From an uncultured Clostridia bacterium (GTDB taxonomy: Bacteria; Bacillota; Clostridia; Christensenellales; Borkfalkiaceae), in contig CANQOY010000012.1 of the NCBI GenBank assembly GCA_947625605.1, positions 1 to 37,702 of the forward strand: a stretch of 37,702 bases of DNA. The letters are read 5' to 3'. Below the pieces are notes generated by a model. That model was not told the origin of the DNA. It did not search any database and saw nothing but the letters and a program-made list of their open reading frames with translations. Numbering within the stretch: position 1 is the stretch's first letter; each line of letters opens with the position of its first letter. Made by a program: the position numbers and the translations under genes. Of this stretch, positions 4,378 to 11,388 are shown in pieces.

Positions 4378-5639
4378 TATGATAGACGCATCTGCGCGAA
4401 TTTCGCGAATTTTTCCGCATAGACGGCGGGAATGATCGCCGTGACCTCGGCGCCGCCGTCGTCGTAGGAGACGGAGCGCTCCGTGAGCAATCCCCGCAGC
4501 GCGCCGTACTCCGCCATTTGGGAATAGGGGATATAGAGCACCGCGCGCACGAACTCCTCCTTCAACGCCTCGAAGATGCGCCTTTTGAGTTCTTCGAGGC
4601 CGAATCCCGTCTTGGCCGAAATGCGCACGCAGTCCTTCGGGAAGCGCACATTCTCCGCCAGATCGCACTTATTCATGACGAACAGATAGGGGGAGGCAAA
4701 GCCGAGTTCTTTGAGGGTGGCGAGCGTCGTGCTGCGCTGCAACTCGTAATCGCCGGACGCGTCGCAGACGATGAGGGCGAGGTCGCAGTTCATCGCGCTC
4801 TCCAAAGTGGATTTGAAGGCTTCGATGAGGTGGTGAGGGAGGTCTTGCAGAAAGCCGACGGTATCTACGAGCAGAAAGGGGATCCCTTCGATCTCGAAGG
4901 CGCGGGCGGTGGGGTCGAGGGTCGCGAAGAGGGCGTCTTTGACGTAGACGTCCGCCCCCGTCATGGCGTTGAGGAGGGTGGATTTTCCCGTATTCGTGTA
5001 GCCGACGAGTGCGACCGTCTTGACGCGCTCCTTCTTTCTCCGCTTGGCCAGCAAGGCGCGCCGTTGCTCCGTCTCCGAAAGTTTGTGTTCCAGCGCATGG
5101 ATGCGGGCGCGGATGTGGCGCCGATCCGTTTCGAGTTTAGTCTCCCCGGGGCCGCGGGTGCCGATCCCTCCGCCCAGCCGCGAAAGGGCGGAACCCTTGC
5201 CTTTCAGCCGCGGATACAGGTATTTCAGCTGCGCAAGTTCGACCTGTATCTTGCCCTCGCTGCTCTCGGCGCGCAGGGCGAAGATATCGAGGATGAGTGC
5301 CGTGCGGTCGATGACCTTGCGTCCGTCCAGCGCCTTTGAAATGTTGAGAGTCTGGGAGGGAGAGAGTTCTCCGTTGAACAGAACGGTAACCCGCTCGTCT
5401 CCGAGCGTCTCCCTGAGTTCGGCGAGCTTTCCCTGCCCGATCAGCGTGGCGGGGTCGATCTCCCGGATGGTTTGGGAGAGCGTGCCCGCATATTCGGCGC
5501 CCGCGCTCTCGATCAGCGCCACGGCCTCCGCGTGGAGGGACTCCGCCTGCGGCCCGAATACGGGTTGGATCACATAAATGCGCTCCCGCCGCTCGCTTTC
5601 CCGTTCGGGGGAGGGGATGTCTGCGCGCTCCCGCTTCAT
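4377..5639 (-). CDS. hflX: GTPase HflX, ribosome-associated
   Basis: OBG-type GTPase that binds the 50S subunit and splits or rescues stalled ribosomes, especially under stress. The N-terminal HflX domain runs to about residue 200 and includes the glycine-rich signature GGGIGTRGPGETKLE (156-170) and a basic coiled coil (185-206). The G domain has the P-loop GYTNTGKS (213-220), G3 DTVGF (259-263) and G4 NKCD in VMNKCDLA. Length 420 is normal. The ATG overlaps the stop of the recombinase gene in an ATGA arrangement, so the pair is translationally coupled from the recombinase promoter. Confidence 0.95.
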   Translation of the reverse strand: MKRERADIPSPERESERRERIYVIQPVFGPQAESLHAEAVALIESAGAEYAGTLSQTIREIDPATLIGQGKLAELRETLGDERVTVLFNGELSPSQTLNISKALDGRKVIDRTALILDIFALRAESSEGKIQVELAQLKYLYPRLKGKGSALSRLGGGIGTRGPGETKLETDRRHIRARIHALEHKLSETEQRRALLAKRRKKERVKTVALVGYTNTGKSTLLNAMTGADVYVKDALFATLDPTARAFEIEGIPFLLVDTVGFLQDLPHHLIEAFKSTLESAMNCDLALIVCDASGDYELQRSTTLATLKELGFASPYLFVMNKCDLAENVRFPKDCVRISAKTGFGLEELKRRIFEALKEEFVRAVLYIPYSQMAEYGALRGLLTERSVSYDDGGAEVTAIIPAVYAEKFAKFAQMRLS

Positions 5640-6697
5640 TCGTCATCCTCCGTCTTGTGCAGCTTTACTTTCCCCGCCACGGAGCGGCGGCTGTCCTCCG
5701 TGATGGCCGCGTAGTGCTTCCGCGTCGTGTTCACGTCCTTATGGCCGAGCACGTCCGCAACGATATAGATATCGCCCGTCTCGCGGTAGAGCGCGGTCCC
5801 GTAGGTGGAGCGCAGCTTGTGCGGCGTGATCTTTTTGAGCGGCGTGACGATGCGCGCGTACTTCTTAACGAGATTTTCCACGGCGCGCACCGTGATCCTC
5901 TTATATTGCAGCGAGAGGAAGAGGGGAGCGGGCTCCGCTTTGGGGACGCGCGGATCGCCCTTTTTCAGTTCGAGATAGGCGGAAAGGGCGTCGGCGACTT
6001 CATCCGAAAAATACAGAATGGCCTTGTTTCCGCCCTTGCGCGTGACGACGAAGGAGTTCGTCTTGAAGTCGAGGTTCTCGTCGTTGAGCCCGACGAGCTC
6101 GGAAATACGGATGCCCGTGCCGAGAAAGAGGGTGAGAATGGCCGTATCCCGCACCTTTGTGCGGGCATGGTAGCCCTCCATGTGGCGCGAAATGCCGTTG
6201 CCGTATTCGGCTGCGTCGAGCAGATCGGAGATCTCGTCTCCCTCCAACCGAATGATCTCCTTTTCGTGCAGCTTGGGAGCGGAGACCTTCGCCGTGTTGT
6301 TCACCTCGATCAAGCCCTTGTTGAAGAAATACTTGAAGAGGGAACGCACCGTGGAAAGTTTGCGCGCCTTGGCCCGCTCGTCGCAGGAGAGGCGCTTTTC
6401 GCCGCGGCGGTAGTTGGTCAGATAGGAGAGGAAGATCTCGATGTCGGTATCCGTGACCTGTTCCAGATCTTCGAGCGTGAGATCCTTGACCTGTTTATTG
6501 CGGAATTTCTTGCGGCAGAGGAAGTCGAAGAAGATGCGCAGATCGTAGCAGTAATTGAGCCGCGTGAGCGTGCTCGTGCGATTTTCCACGCCGCGGAAAA
6601 AATCCTCGCAAAAGTAGGGCAGATCATCGAGAAGTTCGTCGATCCGATCGAGGTTGCGGATATTTCTGTCCTGATAGTAGTCGCCGGAATCTTTCAT
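5636..6697 (-). CDS. XerS-like tyrosine recombinase (probable chromosome dimer resolvase)
   Basis: Single-chain tyrosine recombinase of 353 residues. Every catalytic residue is present: R197 (GTGIRISEL), K221 (TRKGG), H293 and R296 (TPHKLRST), H319 (LGHKD) and nucleophile Y329 (KHYAAI). An extended N-terminal core-binding domain (1-150) precedes the catalytic domain. The length and the N-terminal pattern (LPYFCEDFF..., then a long helical segment and the KDLTLEDLEQVTDTDIE stretch) resemble XerS of streptococci more than the roughly 300-residue XerC/XerD; this is recalled, not aligned. A perfect -35/-10 pair ends 9 nt before the ATG, without a ribosome binding site. hflX is coupled downstream, arguing for a resident chromosomal gene and not a prophage integrase. 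A candidate recognition site lies 130 bp upstream. Confidence 0.85.
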   Translation of the reverse strand: MKDSGDYYQDRNIRNLDRIDELLDDLPYFCEDFFRGVENRTSTLTRLNYCYDLRIFFDFLCRKKFRNKQVKDLTLEDLEQVTDTDIEIFLSYLTNYRRGEKRLSCDERAKARKLSTVRSLFKYFFNKGLIEVNNTAKVSAPKLHEKEIIRLEGDEISDLLDAAEYGNGISRHMEGYHARTKVRDTAILTLFLGTGIRISELVGLNDENLDFKTNSFVVTRKGGNKAILYFSDEVADALSAYLELKKGDPRVPKAEPAPLFLSLQYKRITVRAVENLVKKYARIVTPLKKITPHKLRSTYGTALYRETGDIYIVADVLGHKDVNTTRKHYAAITEDSRRSVAGKVKLHKTEDDE

Positions 6698-6706
6698 AGC
6701 GAAATC

Positions 6707-6735
6707 ATTATAGCAGAAAGGATGGAAAATGTCAA
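6707..6735 (-). promoter_or_regulatory. Consensus promoter of the recombinase-hflX operon
   Basis: On the minus strand TTGACA (6730-6735) and TATAAT (6707-6712) are separated by exactly 17 bp. The -10 ends 9 nt before the start codon and the intervening bases contain no Shine-Dalgarno, implying a leaderless or nearly leaderless transcript. Confidence 0.88.
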
Positions 6736-6826
6736 TTTTACGAAGAGTTAAAGGGGAGAAAAATAAATTTTTTGCGAAAAGAATGGGCGGGGGAGGGCGG
6801 AATTAGAAGGCAGACAGACACATTAA

Positions 6827-6858
6827 ACTATTCGTAAAATTACAGTTTTGCGAATAGT
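6827..6858. other. Candidate dif-type recombination site (13-6-13 inverted repeat)
   Basis: Left arm ACTATTCGTAAAA, centre TTACAG, right arm TTTTGCGAATAGT. The arms pair at 12 of 13 positions, with one T-G mismatch. Two 11-13 bp arms around a 6-bp centre, with inner AAAA and TTTT, is the layout of Xer recombination sites. It lies in the non-coding DNA just upstream of a XerS-like gene; in the known single-recombinase systems (XerS/difSL, XerH/difH) the site is likewise next to the gene. No T-run follows on either strand, so a terminator is less likely. Confidence 0.6.
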
Positions 6859-7090: not shown

Positions 7091-7129
7091 ATACTATGCG
7101 TGACATAGCACTTATGTCTGACATACTAT
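7091..7129 (-). repeat. Dispersed palindromic repeat, copy B (two units), overlapping the amylase stop
   Basis: Two partial units in tandem: plus-strand TACTATGCGTGACATA and, 3 bp further on, CTTATGTCTGACATACTAT. The second contains the perfect palindrome TATGTCAGACATA (minus strand). The amylase stop codon TAG is part of the second unit. It shares its core with copies A, C and D. Confidence 0.65.
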
Positions 7130-8955
7130 TTGATCTTCGCAAGGATCGCGTAGGAATTCGGCCGCAGGAGAAAGACGTCGCTTCCTTCCTCGCCCGAGAG
7201 TTCTTCGCGGTATCGGCCGAATGTTTCGATCCGATATTCCGTCGCCGAATTGTTGCAGAGGACGGCGACGCTCGCCTCGTTCTTTCTCCGCTCGAAGATC
7301 AGGCAGCCTTGGTCGGCGAAGATCTCCCGATACTCCCCGTCGCCGAAAACTTCGGGGAAGCGCTCTCTGCGGATCTCGCCCAGCGTGCGGTAAAATGCTT
7401 CGAGCGCCGTATCCATGTCGTCCCACGGGAAGCAGGCGCGGCAAAACGGATCGCCGTATCCCTCCATGCCGACTTCGTCGCCGTAGTAGACGCAGGGCAC
7501 GCCGGGCAGCGTATACAGCAGCACGGCGGCCGCTTTCAGCTTTTGCTTCGCGCGGGCCTTTTCCGCTTCGTCGAGAAAGGTAACGGCCATCTCTTCCTTG
7601 GTCGCGCAGTGCTTTCCTCCGAGCACGGTCAGAATGCGCGCCGTGTCGTGCGTGCCGAGCACATTCATGAGACTGTGCAGGGTGCTCTTCGGGTAGTTAT
7701 CGACGAGCGCCCGCATTGTTTCGCGCAGGGAAGCGCAGTTTCCCGTCGTGAGGTAGTCAACGATGGCGTCTTTGAGCGGATAGTTCATGACGCTGTCCAG
7801 CTCATAGCCTTGGAGGTATTCCCTGCGCTCGTCATAGGAGATCTTGTTGGACGCGTCCTCCCAGACCTCGCCGATGATGAGCGCGTCGGGATCCTCGTCT
7901 TTGATCGCCGTCCGGATCTCCCGCAGGAAGCGGTCGGGGAGCTCGTCTGCAACGTCGAGGCGGAACCCGCCGATCCCGCGGCGCAGCCATGTCCGCACGA
8001 CGCCGTCCTTTCCGCAGATAAATTCGCGGTAGGAAGGGGCATCTTCGCGCACGGCGGGCAGGGTCTCGATCCCCCACCAGCTGTCGTACGATGCGGGAAA
8101 TTCATGGAACGTGTACCACTCGGCATAGGGCGAGTGCGGAGATTGATACGCGCCGAGGGAATCGTACGTCCCGTATCTGTTGAAGTAGCGGCTGTCGTCC
8201 CCCGTATGGTTGAATACGCCGTCCAAAAGGATGCGTATCCCCCTCTTTTCCGCCTCTTTTACGAGTCGGTCGAAGTCTGCGTCCGTGCCGAGCAGAGGGT
8301 CCAACTTCATGAAATCTCCCGTGTCGTAGCGGTGGTTGGAGTATGCCTCGAAGATCGGGTTCAGGTAGAGAACGTTGACATGGAGCGAGCGGAGATAGTC
8401 GAGTTTCTCCGTGATGCCGTTGAAATTCCCCCCGAAAAAGTCGTTGTTGAGTACTTTTCCGCGCTCATTCGGGCGGAACGAGGGACACCCGCCCCAATCC
8501 CTGCGGAGCACCTTGCCGTGCGCAATGGGATATTCCCCCGACTTGTGAAAGCGATCGGGGAAGATCTGGTACATGACGCTGCCCAAAAACCAATGCGGCG
8601 TCTCGTACGTTTCGCTGTATACCGTGATCTGCCAGCTCTCGGGCCTCTCGGTGACGATGGCGCGCCGCAGCGCTCCGCGGCCCAAAAAGAGGGTATCCGA
8701 GAATGCGAAGAAGTAAAAATACAGCCCGACTTCATGAAAGATGAGGGTGAGTTCGAACCCCTCTTTCGTGCGCTTCATCGGGATGCGCCTCCCCTCTTCT
8801 CCGTCGCGGTACAAAACAAAATAACAGACGTCGGCGGAGAAGCATGCTTCTCCGCTGTCCTCTGTTCCGATTCGGAAGGTCACTTTGCTCCCGCGAGGGA
8901 ATCCCCCTACGGACGACTTGCACCGCCGGTCCGTCGGGTCGTAATAAAACTGCAT
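7126..8955 (-). CDS. Intracellular GH13 alpha-glucanase (neopullulanase/cyclomaltodextrinase-like)
   Basis: Hydrolyses alpha-1,4 (possibly also alpha-1,6) links in glycogen-derived oligosaccharides. No signal peptide, so cytoplasmic. The first roughly 115 residues are a beta-rich N-terminal domain as in the neopullulanase group, followed by the TIM barrel: DGVFNH at 245-250, nucleophile D334 in GFRLDVADE, acid/base E363 in IIGEVWED and D437 in LGTHDTAR. A short beta C-terminal domain ends the 609-residue protein. It is the last gene of the glycogen operon, 6 bp after glgP, and would complement the phosphorylase by trimming branched limit dextrins. Exact specificity cannot be read from sequence. 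Its stop codon lies inside a copy of the dispersed repeat. Confidence 0.9.
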   Translation of the reverse strand: MQFYYDPTDRRCKSSVGGFPRGSKVTFRIGTEDSGEACFSADVCYFVLYRDGEEGRRIPMKRTKEGFELTLIFHEVGLYFYFFAFSDTLFLGRGALRRAIVTERPESWQITVYSETYETPHWFLGSVMYQIFPDRFHKSGEYPIAHGKVLRRDWGGCPSFRPNERGKVLNNDFFGGNFNGITEKLDYLRSLHVNVLYLNPIFEAYSNHRYDTGDFMKLDPLLGTDADFDRLVKEAEKRGIRILLDGVFNHTGDDSRYFNRYGTYDSLGAYQSPHSPYAEWYTFHEFPASYDSWWGIETLPAVREDAPSYREFICGKDGVVRTWLRRGIGGFRLDVADELPDRFLREIRTAIKDEDPDALIIGEVWEDASNKISYDERREYLQGYELDSVMNYPLKDAIVDYLTTGNCASLRETMRALVDNYPKSTLHSLMNVLGTHDTARILTVLGGKHCATKEEMAVTFLDEAEKARAKQKLKAAAVLLYTLPGVPCVYYGDEVGMEGYGDPFCRACFPWDDMDTALEAFYRTLGEIRRERFPEVFGDGEYREIFADQGCLIFERRKNEASVAVLCNNSATEYRIETFGRYREELSGEEGSDVFLLRPNSYAILAKIK

Positions 8956-8961
8956 AGGCGT

Positions 8962-11388
8962 TTACTTTTTGACGGGCTTTAAGTTCCAGATATTGTTCGC
9001 GTACTCGCGGATGCTTCTGTCGGCCGCAAAGTACCCCGCGGCGGAGATATTCATGAGCGACTTTCTGTTCCACTCCATGGGGTCGTTCCTGTACAGCGCC
9101 GAGATGCGGCTCTGCGTATTCGTGTAAGACTCAAAGTCCGCGAGACACATGTAGGGATCGGCGACGGGCGCGCTGCGGAGCAGATAGTTTGCGATTTCCC
9201 CGAACGAACAGCCGTTGAAGCCCACGATGAGCGATTCGATGACGCGCCTGAGTTCGAGATTCTGGTTGTAGTATGCGCTCGAATTGTAGCCGCTGTTCCA
9301 GATCTCCCGCACTTCTTCCGCGCGAAGCCCGAAGATGAAGATATTGTCGTCGCCTACGCGCTCCGCCATTTCGACGTTCGCGCCGTCGAGCGTGCCGACC
9401 GTCAGCGCGCCGTTGATCATGAACTTCATGTTGCCCGTGCCGCTCGCCTCCTTTCCTGCGAGGGAGATCTGCTCGGAGATCTCGGAAGCGGGCATGAGCT
9501 TTTCTGACATGGTTACGTTGTAGTTCTCCATGTACACGACGTTGAGCTTCTCATGGATCTTCGGATGCTTTTTGATATCCTCGGACAGGAAGCAGATGAG
9601 CTTCATGATCTGTTTTGCCCGTTCGTAGCCCGCGGCCGCCTTCGCGCCGAAGATATACGTCTTGGGCTGGACGTCGAGATCGGGGTTTTCGAGGAGGGCA
9701 TTGTACTCCTGAATGATATGGAGCGCATTGAGGAGCTGGCGTTTGTATTCGTGCATGCGCTTGGCCTGCACGTCGAACATGGTATTCGGGTCGATCTCGA
9801 TCCCCTGCTCTTTCTTGGCGTAGCGCGCGAATTGCTCCTTTTTGATGCGCTTGATCTCGCCGAGGCGTTTAAGGACGCTCTCATCGTCTGCAAACTTGGC
9901 AAATTCGGAGAGCAGTTCGGCGTTCTTGGCATAACCCGCGCCGATACAGTCGTCGAGAAGTTCGCAAAGTTCGGGGTTGGACTGGTTCAGCCATCTCCTG
10001 TGCGCGATGCCGTTCGTCACATTCGTGAATTTTTCCGGCGTGTATTCGTAGAAGTCGCGGAAGATGCTCTCCTTGATGATGTTGCTGTGGAGCGCGGAGA
10101 CGCCGTTGACGCTGTGCGAGCCGACGACGCAGAGATTCGCCATGCGGACGATATTGTGGCCGAGGATGGCCATGCGGGAGATCTTATCCCACTCGCCGGG
10201 GAAGCGCTTCCAGAGGTCCTCGCAGAATCTGCGGTTGATCTCTTTCAAGATCGTATGGATGCGCGGAAGCCTGCGCGCGATGAGATCCTCCGCCCACGTT
10301 TCGAGCGCTTCGGCGAGCACGGTATGGTTGGTGTAGGCGCAGGTCGCCGTGGTGATGCTCCACGCCTCGTCCCACGAGAAGCGGTTTTCATCCACCAAAA
10401 TGCGCATGAGCTCGGGAATGGCGAGCGCGGGATGGGTATCGTTGATGTGGATGGCCGCCATGTCGGGGAGAAGCGCCAAAGACCCGTAGCGGCGCTTGTG
10501 GTCGGACACGATGCACTGCAAGGAGGCCGAAACGAGGAAGTATTGCTGTTTGAGGCGGAGCGACTTCCCCTCATAGTGGTTATCTGAGGGATAGAGCACT
10601 TTGGAGATGAGCTGCGCGTCCGCATCGTCCCGCATGACGGTGGCATAGTCGCCCTGCGAAAAGAGCTGCATGTCGAACTTCTGCACGGCGCGGGAACGCC
10701 AGAGCCTGAGCACGCTGACAGCCTCGGAATTCGCCCCCGAGACCATCATGTCGTACGCAAACGCCTCGACTTCCTTGGCGTCGCGATAGACGACTTCCAT
10801 GCCCTGATCCGTCCACCGCTCCTCCACTTCGCCGTCGAAGCGGACGATGAACTGCTTATCCGTGCGCTGCGTGAGCCACGCGTCTCCGCCCGGAAGCCAA
10901 TTATCGGGCAGCTCGATCTGCCATCCGTCCACGATCTTCTGCTTAAAAAGCCCGTAGTGATAGCAGATGGAAAAGCCCATTGCGGGGTAATTTTGGGTGG
11001 CGAGCGCGTCCAAAAAGCAGGCTGCGAGCCGCCCCAACCCTCCGTTGCCGAGCCCCGCGTCGGGCTCCTCTTCATAGAGCTCTTCCAGCGTGAGCTTATA
11101 CCGTTTGAGCGCGGTCGTCAAGGGCTTTTCGATCCCGAGATTGTAGACGCTGTTTTTGAGAGACCGCCCCAACAGAAATTCCATGCAGAGGTAATAGACG
11201 CGCTTGGACTTGGTGCTCTTTACCTTTTTATGGAATTTGTGCCGCTTTTCGAGCATGATATCGCGCACGCTCATGACGACTGCCTTGTAGATCTGTTCCC
11301 GTGTGGCCTCTGCGGGGGAAACGCCGAAATAGCGCGTGAGTTTCCCCTCGATCAGCCGTTCTGCTTCCGTTTCGGAAAGATTGCTCAT
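8962..11388 (-). CDS. glgP: Glycogen/maltodextrin phosphorylase
   Basis: PLP-dependent GT35 enzyme that releases glucose-1-phosphate from the non-reducing ends of glycogen. The PLP lysine is K655 in the signature EASGTGNMKFMINGAL. Other conserved blocks include GNGGLGRLAACF, HINDTHPALAIPELMR and TNGIAHRRWL. Its 808 residues match the usual length. AGGAG lies 12 nt upstream of the ATG. Position between glycogen synthase and the amylase means synthesis and breakdown enzymes come from a single transcript, so the balance between them must be set mainly by enzyme-level control. Confidence 0.97.
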   Translation of the reverse strand: MSNLSETEAERLIEGKLTRYFGVSPAEATREQIYKAVVMSVRDIMLEKRHKFHKKVKSTKSKRVYYLCMEFLLGRSLKNSVYNLGIEKPLTTALKRYKLTLEELYEEEPDAGLGNGGLGRLAACFLDALATQNYPAMGFSICYHYGLFKQKIVDGWQIELPDNWLPGGDAWLTQRTDKQFIVRFDGEVEERWTDQGMEVVYRDAKEVEAFAYDMMVSGANSEAVSVLRLWRSRAVQKFDMQLFSQGDYATVMRDDADAQLISKVLYPSDNHYEGKSLRLKQQYFLVSASLQCIVSDHKRRYGSLALLPDMAAIHINDTHPALAIPELMRILVDENRFSWDEAWSITTATCAYTNHTVLAEALETWAEDLIARRLPRIHTILKEINRRFCEDLWKRFPGEWDKISRMAILGHNIVRMANLCVVGSHSVNGVSALHSNIIKESIFRDFYEYTPEKFTNVTNGIAHRRWLNQSNPELCELLDDCIGAGYAKNAELLSEFAKFADDESVLKRLGEIKRIKKEQFARYAKKEQGIEIDPNTMFDVQAKRMHEYKRQLLNALHIIQEYNALLENPDLDVQPKTYIFGAKAAAGYERAKQIMKLICFLSEDIKKHPKIHEKLNVVYMENYNVTMSEKLMPASEISEQISLAGKEASGTGNMKFMINGALTVGTLDGANVEMAERVGDDNIFIFGLRAEEVREIWNSGYNSSAYYNQNLELRRVIESLIVGFNGCSFGEIANYLLRSAPVADPYMCLADFESYTNTQSRISALYRNDPMEWNRKSLMNISAAGYFAADRSIREYANNIWNLKPVKK

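Follow-up and report, generated by a model that had tools for sequence, protein, structure and literature searches.

A near-symmetric 32-bp element beside an XerS-like recombinase gene: a very probable dif site for a clostridial single-recombinase Xer system

The window analyzed here, a stretch of 37,702 nucleotides from an uncultured Clostridia bacterium (contig CANQOY010000012.1 of assembly GCA_947625605.1), carries a 32-bp element between a gene of the alpha-amylase family and a tyrosine recombinase gene that adjoins hflX and lexA (Table 1). The element reads ACTATTCGTAAAA-TTACAG-TTTTGCGAATAGT, with 12 of 13 Watson-Crick pairs between the arms flanking the centre, and lies upstream of the recombinase gene, 129 bp from its ATG. 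An earlier reading made from the sequence alone had described such a palindrome around TTACAG, about 130 bp upstream of a 353-residue recombinase with all catalytic residues. Both its coordinates and its letters proved exact, and the six residues could be located in the window's protein as R197, K221, H293, R296, H319 and Y329, which we take to be the catalytic residues of tyrosine recombinases; all but H319 are invariant in an eight-member alignment.

Table 1. Positions of the features around the element, counted from the first letter of the window
Feature	Position	Strand	Remarks
Putative dif site	6827..6858	none	arm 6827-6839, centre 6840-6845, arm 6846-6858; pattern in 87/101 relatives including the own genome
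353-aa tyrosine recombinase, XerS-like, proposed sole Xer	5636..6697	minus	Phage_integrase E 3e-28; XerS model 201.2 bits
Alpha-amylase-family gene	7126..8955	minus	other flank of the site
Single dif-arm half-site ACTCTTCGTAAAA, candidate operator	6736..6748	minus	exact AACTMTTCGYAAAA in 35/50 genus members examined
-35 box TTGACA	6730..6735	minus	abuts the half-site
-10 box TATAAT	6707..6712	minus	spacing of 17 bp to the -35 box and of 9 nt to the ATG

Of the NCBIfam models, XerS gives the window's protein its highest score, 201.2 bits for a cut-off of 267, followed by XerC (157) and XerD (144). All eight proteins of set A1 match the XerS model, and its cut-off is reached by none of the 101 genomes searched and passed by a Lactococcus control. 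Among solved structures, the protein matches XerD with an E value of 7.2e-18 and XerH, behind XerD and XerA, with 2.3e-4. The label “XerS-like” given to the enzyme in the sequence-only reading is thus kept insofar as XerS is the nearest model, but the protein stays below the XerS cut-off and the site is not a difSL. It is likely that these genomes have no second Xer. The own genome encodes one complete tyrosine recombinase plus a C-terminal fragment at a contig end (a 112-aa open frame, 41% identical over 54 aa), as well as an FtsK gamma domain (64.6 bits). The XerD and XerC cut-offs were passed by none of the 101 relatives, but also by just four and two, respectively, of 14 control genomes, which makes this test of absence weak. 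In ten relatives (G011, G019, G036, G037, G045, G048, G064, G068, G078 and G089) we observed a second tyrosine recombinase that scores 207-280 bits with the XerD model and 209-250 with the XerC model, below both cut-offs.

As a palindrome alone, the element is not unique in the window: 13-bp arms separated by a 6-bp gap and forming at least 12 pairs occur at three places, against five in total in 50 mononucleotide shuffles. Since such palindromes are not rare here, the case for a dif site rests on comparison. As a sequence, the element is beyond chance, given its single genomic copy, the zero reversed matches and its order-wide conservation. A search for a second copy, proposed earlier as a check, returned one copy only in the own genome, which is 97% complete at 1.43 Mb in 37 contigs, and no match to the reversed pattern. 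We then searched 101 genomes (the own, 60 of the genus and 40 of the order) for the two arms with a free centre, allowing up to three mismatches. The arms were found in 87 of them, once in 82 and twice in five, while the reversed control pattern had matches in four; within the genus, 56 of 61 genomes matched. Likewise, the comparison of upstream regions suggested by the sequence-only reading showed that both arms are kept near orthologues of the recombinase gene and that the 6-bp centre differs among species (CACAGC, TGCCGC and TTAGGC, among others). This conservation bears on another idea, in which the element, with a 13-bp stem and a 6-nt loop and placed 268 bp past the amylase stop, would be an RNA hairpin or transcription terminator behind that gene. 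Conservation extends to the letters and is not limited to the pairing; moreover, the neighbour on the amylase side is spoIIP in one relative (G099), and elements recombine at the site (see below). We assign this explanation a negligible probability.

The site pattern was absent, at up to three mismatches, from 14 of the 101 genomes. A softer score recovers gene-adjacent sites in G070, G081, G083 and G097, and in G073 and G088, which have a strong recombinase, the stretch around the gene holds no site even by this score. The recombinase itself was matched (E ≤ 0.001) in 98 of 101 genomes, weakly in three (G024, G078 and G086), and a strong homologue is present in 95 of the 101; no match was obtained in G023, G058 and G067. 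The site is also missing in all six genomes with a weak or no recombinase, four of which are less than 90% complete. In a class-wide sample of 341 genomes, 56 have a strong homologue (at least 270 bits), 45 the site and 33 both, an association with a Fisher probability of 4e-21, uncorrected for kinship; 23 of the 56 genomes with a strong homologue gave no site match, and 12 have the site only, five of them belonging to family f34. In these five (G101, G140, G195, G330 and G347), from another family of the class, we observed a related site with CTATTCC arms and, 2.4-5.6 kb away on the same contig, a more distant XerS-like recombinase of 33-35% identity. Similarly, in G365, also with the site and no strong homologue, the site lies about 130 bp from a gene of this 33-35%-identical type.

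Site and gene are usually close. Less than 1 kb separates the recombinase gene from a site upstream of it in 38 of the 42 relatives' stretches that contain both and in 55 of the 65 full-site loci of a second set of 80 loci, mostly from uncultured Clostridia; in Pumilibacter intestinalis (Pumilibacteraceae), it lies 107 bp before the matched part of the gene. The remaining 15 loci of the second set have no full site within the stretch covered, including L213, whose site is a hybrid (see below), and L161, with a promoter half-site only. Site and gene are apart in G062 (by 54 kb), G100, G077, G093, G036, G037 and G032, and are placed on different contigs in G036, G037, G100 and others.

We next consider the position of the site relative to GC skew. 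In the two single-contig relatives used for this purpose, the site coincides with a change of skew sign. In G090 (2.56 Mb), the skew sampled ahead of the site is positive and that beyond it negative, with the crossover no more than about 2 kb from position 2,270,628; the other change falls near 0.8-0.9 Mb, with dnaA at 911 kb, 0.53 of the contig from the site. In G092 (2.42 Mb), one sign change lies 2 kb or less from the site, which is at 25.3 kb, and the other between the slices at 1.20 and 1.28 Mb, with dnaA at 1.254 Mb, 0.51 of the contig away. These flips and the single copy in 82 of 101 genomes support one site per chromosome, located at the terminus. Across 95 loci (after removing those that scored below 20, had less than 3 kb on one flank or shared an identical site context), the skew to the right of the site is lower than that to the left in 92 when flanks of 8 kb are used; L173, L213 and L197 do not follow, the latter two being hybrid sites beside a phage-like element. 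The 8-kb control, of which 72.9% of 1106 positions were positive, overlaps the site flanks, and the clean control is therefore that with 3-kb flanks, where the drop is seen at 88 of 95 loci versus 46.4% of 494 control positions. The skew of the window itself was rejected as a test for the terminus, being weak and confounded by gene strand; its cumulative maximum falls at about 17-18 kb, away from the site.

The genomes in which site and gene are separated help to judge whether the palindrome acts as an operator, for the recombinase gene or for genes next to it, instead of a recombination site, as might be thought from its position upstream of the gene and, in G071, G074, G092 and G094, with the whole element directly before the -35 box. 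Against this, the site is kept even 54 kb from the gene or on another contig, and all six separated genomes compared show a stronger skew drop at the site than at the gene. The contrast is clear in G100, G077 and G093 (the latter two with short flanks), modest in G062 and G036, and slight in G037, where the drop at the site is just 0.008; G053, G032 and G004 fell outside this comparison since their contigs end near the site or the gene. Together with the insertion of elements at the site, these data make an operator alone very unlikely.

Insertions at the putative dif site, found in several relatives, are the strongest argument for this assignment. In G099, a 5.4-kb inovirus-like element has an intact dif at one end and an altered copy at the other; in the latter, the gene-side arm, the centre and TTTT are preserved, after which the sequence departs from dif. 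The element encodes a Zot-family protein (21.0 bits, cut-off 20.3) and a Rep_trans initiator (E 1.1e-14). The empty site is seen in G072, a member of the same genus, where the two flanks of the element meet at one dif: blastn aligns the spoIIP side of G099 from the site outward and, across the site, the recombinase gene as well, and 25 bp of the G072 site match the G099 hybrid. In L171, a microvirus prophage with capsid (Phage_F, E 2.7e-93), pilot and replication proteins has an intact dif on one side and, on the other, altered dif-like copies near 9696 and 9790, either of which may be the junction. Its flanks are the same genes as in the window, the amylase (62%) and the recombinase (79% identical), and this latter identity is the basis for assigning L171 to the window's genus. 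Two further loci, L213 and L197, have one hybrid junction each beside a Rep_OBD gene (E 1.3e-15 and 6.1e-9) and a protein with a P-loop discerned by eye; neither contig runs through to the far end of the element, which leaves a weak inovirus reading for both. No recombinase family was detected among the element proteins scanned (five in G099, four in L171, two in L213 and three in L197). The elements of G099 and L171 thus have the features of IMEX, lying between dif copies with both junctions present and without a recombinase of their own among the proteins scanned. The junctions are observed; the ssDNA phages were presumably inserted at dif through the single recombinase of the host.

These insertions also allow weighing whether recombinase and site form a mobile element or its remnant, the site being its attachment or resolution site. 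Gene and site do occur together in most loci, and elements do insert at the site. Nevertheless, the strong homologue in 95 of 101 genomes of the order, the place of the gene beside hflX and lexA, the location of the site at the skew shift in two relatives, and inserted elements that carry their own genes, with no recombinase among those scanned, all speak against it, and we regard this possibility as extremely improbable.

Other virus-related sequences contain similar sites. Among the free IMG/VR microviruses related to the L171 capsid, 18 contigs with a best-segment identity of at most 34%, none has a dif-like site of at least 20/26. Fourteen IMG/VR viral contigs (L146-L159), five of them of 89-126 kb, contain the exact 30-bp site pattern once each: in L151, L153, L155 and L157 it lies between a small frame, with a terminase small subunit match in L155 only, and a terminase large-subunit gene (matched in all four), and in L149 near a dUTPase gene. 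No recombinase homologue was found in the stretches of these contigs examined, and it is possible that they use such sites for attachment or dimer resolution by the host Xer. Additional dif-like palindromes, in which the centre has 9 bp rather than 6, are present near the recombinase promoter in L171 (near 9790) and L197 (about 50 bp upstream of xer). Finally, G118 has a 12-kb contig with two dif-like sites 5.6 kb apart (L284:5526 and L284:11094) and, by eye, replication-like and serine-resolvase-like genes, plus one more dif-like site on another contig (L285:3198).

A second element of the window, a single dif arm, abuts the -35 box of the putative recombinase promoter. Given how near the -10 box is to the start codon, the recombinase mRNA may be near-leaderless; by eye, this spacing is similarly short in many genus members. 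Among the 61 genus genomes, 50 could be evaluated (ten lacked a usable upstream stretch and one was too short), and 35 of these have the exact AACTMTTCGYAAAA at the recombinase promoter, followed by TTGAC directly or one base later in 34. Mononucleotide shuffles reached at least 13/14 of the half-site pattern in 0.08% of cases. In G093, L228 and L230, an arm is found just after a TTGACA. A promoter arm (at least 11/13) is present in 69 of 105 loci whose dif lies 100 bp or more away or in another place, versus three of 34 where it is near (Fisher 5e-9, uncorrected for kinship, related species not being independent). These 139 loci remained of 162 with 100 bp upstream after dropping nine duplicates and 14 without a known dif; among them, G032 fell into the “near” group as its half-site was scored as the site, and the “half-site” of G099 is the insertion hybrid. 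Within the genus, 36 of 43 reach p ≤ 0.05 in this count and only 11 reach p ≤ 0.01, the loci being short. Covariation of the half-site with the own arm variant was discarded as evidence, as informative cases were few and the test was partly circular, the search having used the own arm.

These observations suggest, at lower confidence than the dif assignment, that the promoter arm probably lets the recombinase limit its own transcription. Alternatively, the half-site could be what earlier insertions at dif left behind, a scar instead of an operator: a real insertion leaves a half-altered dif next to the gene in G099, and some half-sites occur with dif 1-3 kb away (L211, L216 and L237). Against a scar, 34 of the 35 exact genus arms remain beside the -35 box and, by eye, the DNA between promoter arm and dif differs between species. 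We consider the scar rather doubtful, although it deserves appreciable weight, and it concerns the autoregulation only.

Taken together, (i) the conservation of the arms, (ii) the varying centre, (iii) the single copy, (iv) the skew shift in two relatives and (v) the phage-like insertions support the proposal of the sequence-only reading, and we conclude from these sequence comparisons that the element very probably serves a clostridial single-recombinase Xer system as its chromosomal dif. The near-symmetric arms would be bound by two monomers of the neighbouring 353-aa recombinase, with strand exchange inside the 6-bp centre or at its borders; the variation of this centre among species fits an overlap region giving the site its polarity. 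The reaction, taking place at the terminus, would convert chromosome dimers to monomers and is probably activated by FtsK, of which the gamma domain is encoded in the genome. The same enzyme would presumably insert the inovirus-like element and the microvirus and, through the arm at its promoter, might limit its own transcription. It is tempting to speculate further, with somewhat less than even confidence, that a single-Xer system without a name extends over many families of Clostridia, that its dif arms double as the recombinase operator (the whole dif at the promoter in some lineages, a lone arm there in those where dif has moved away), the same arm setting the enzyme level, and that the site is a recurrent landing point of inoviruses and microviruses.

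Judged by titles and abstract openings, the papers listed in searches of open-licence literature contained no treatment of this system or of phages at an XerS-type dif. What is new is how widely the system occurs in Clostridia, together with its nearly symmetric site, the ssDNA phages found there and the promoter arm. If true, single-recombinase dif systems would gain a large group of Clostridia, and the motif would mark the terminus in draft genomes. The insertions would suggest how small integrase-less ssDNA phages become prophages in these bacteria. In addition, the near-symmetric substrate could serve for testing how one enzyme keeps directionality, and the promoter half-site makes the control of the Xer level directly testable.

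According to the portions of the sources consulted, single-recombinase dif systems have been described in streptococci and lactococci, some Epsilonproteobacteria, Legionellales and archaea. XerS/difSL of streptococci and lactococci likewise has one recombinase of about 355 aa and a site beside its gene (excerpts of PMC5357621). However, difSL is described there as a 31-bp site with an 11-bp centre and unequal arms TTTCCGAAAA / TTTTCTTGAAA, whereas the site reported here has a 6-bp centre and near-identical arms CTATTCGYAAAA of another sequence, a layout different from that of difSL, and its recombinase scores below the XerS equivalog cut-off with XerS still as the nearest model. Thus, by protein model and site layout the system falls outside XerS/difSL, though it appears to work like it. 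XerH/difH of Helicobacter and Campylobacter, in the same excerpts, is also a single recombinase with a site near its gene, but the solved XerH is a weak match to the protein studied here (E 2.3e-4) and the arm sequences differ. XerL/dif of Legionellales, as presented in the available parts of PMC9765430, shares the single recombinase and the long uninterrupted inverted arms, and was similarly revealed by a mobile element, LME-1, that inserts at the Legionella dif leaving one intact and one altered copy; in contrast, dif and xerL are more than 400 kb apart in L. pneumophila, while gene and site are usually close here. Regarding the phages, the sections seen of several reports describe microviruses and inoviruses that integrate at XerCD dif sites via the host Xer, such as gokushoviruses at the dif of E. 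coli (PMC7062461), microvirus-like proviruses of Bacteroidetes (PMC3091885) and filamentous phages (PMC5357621). These are also small ssDNA phages whose prophages are flanked by an intact and a variable dif copy, whereas the host enzyme in Clostridia would be a single XerS-like recombinase.
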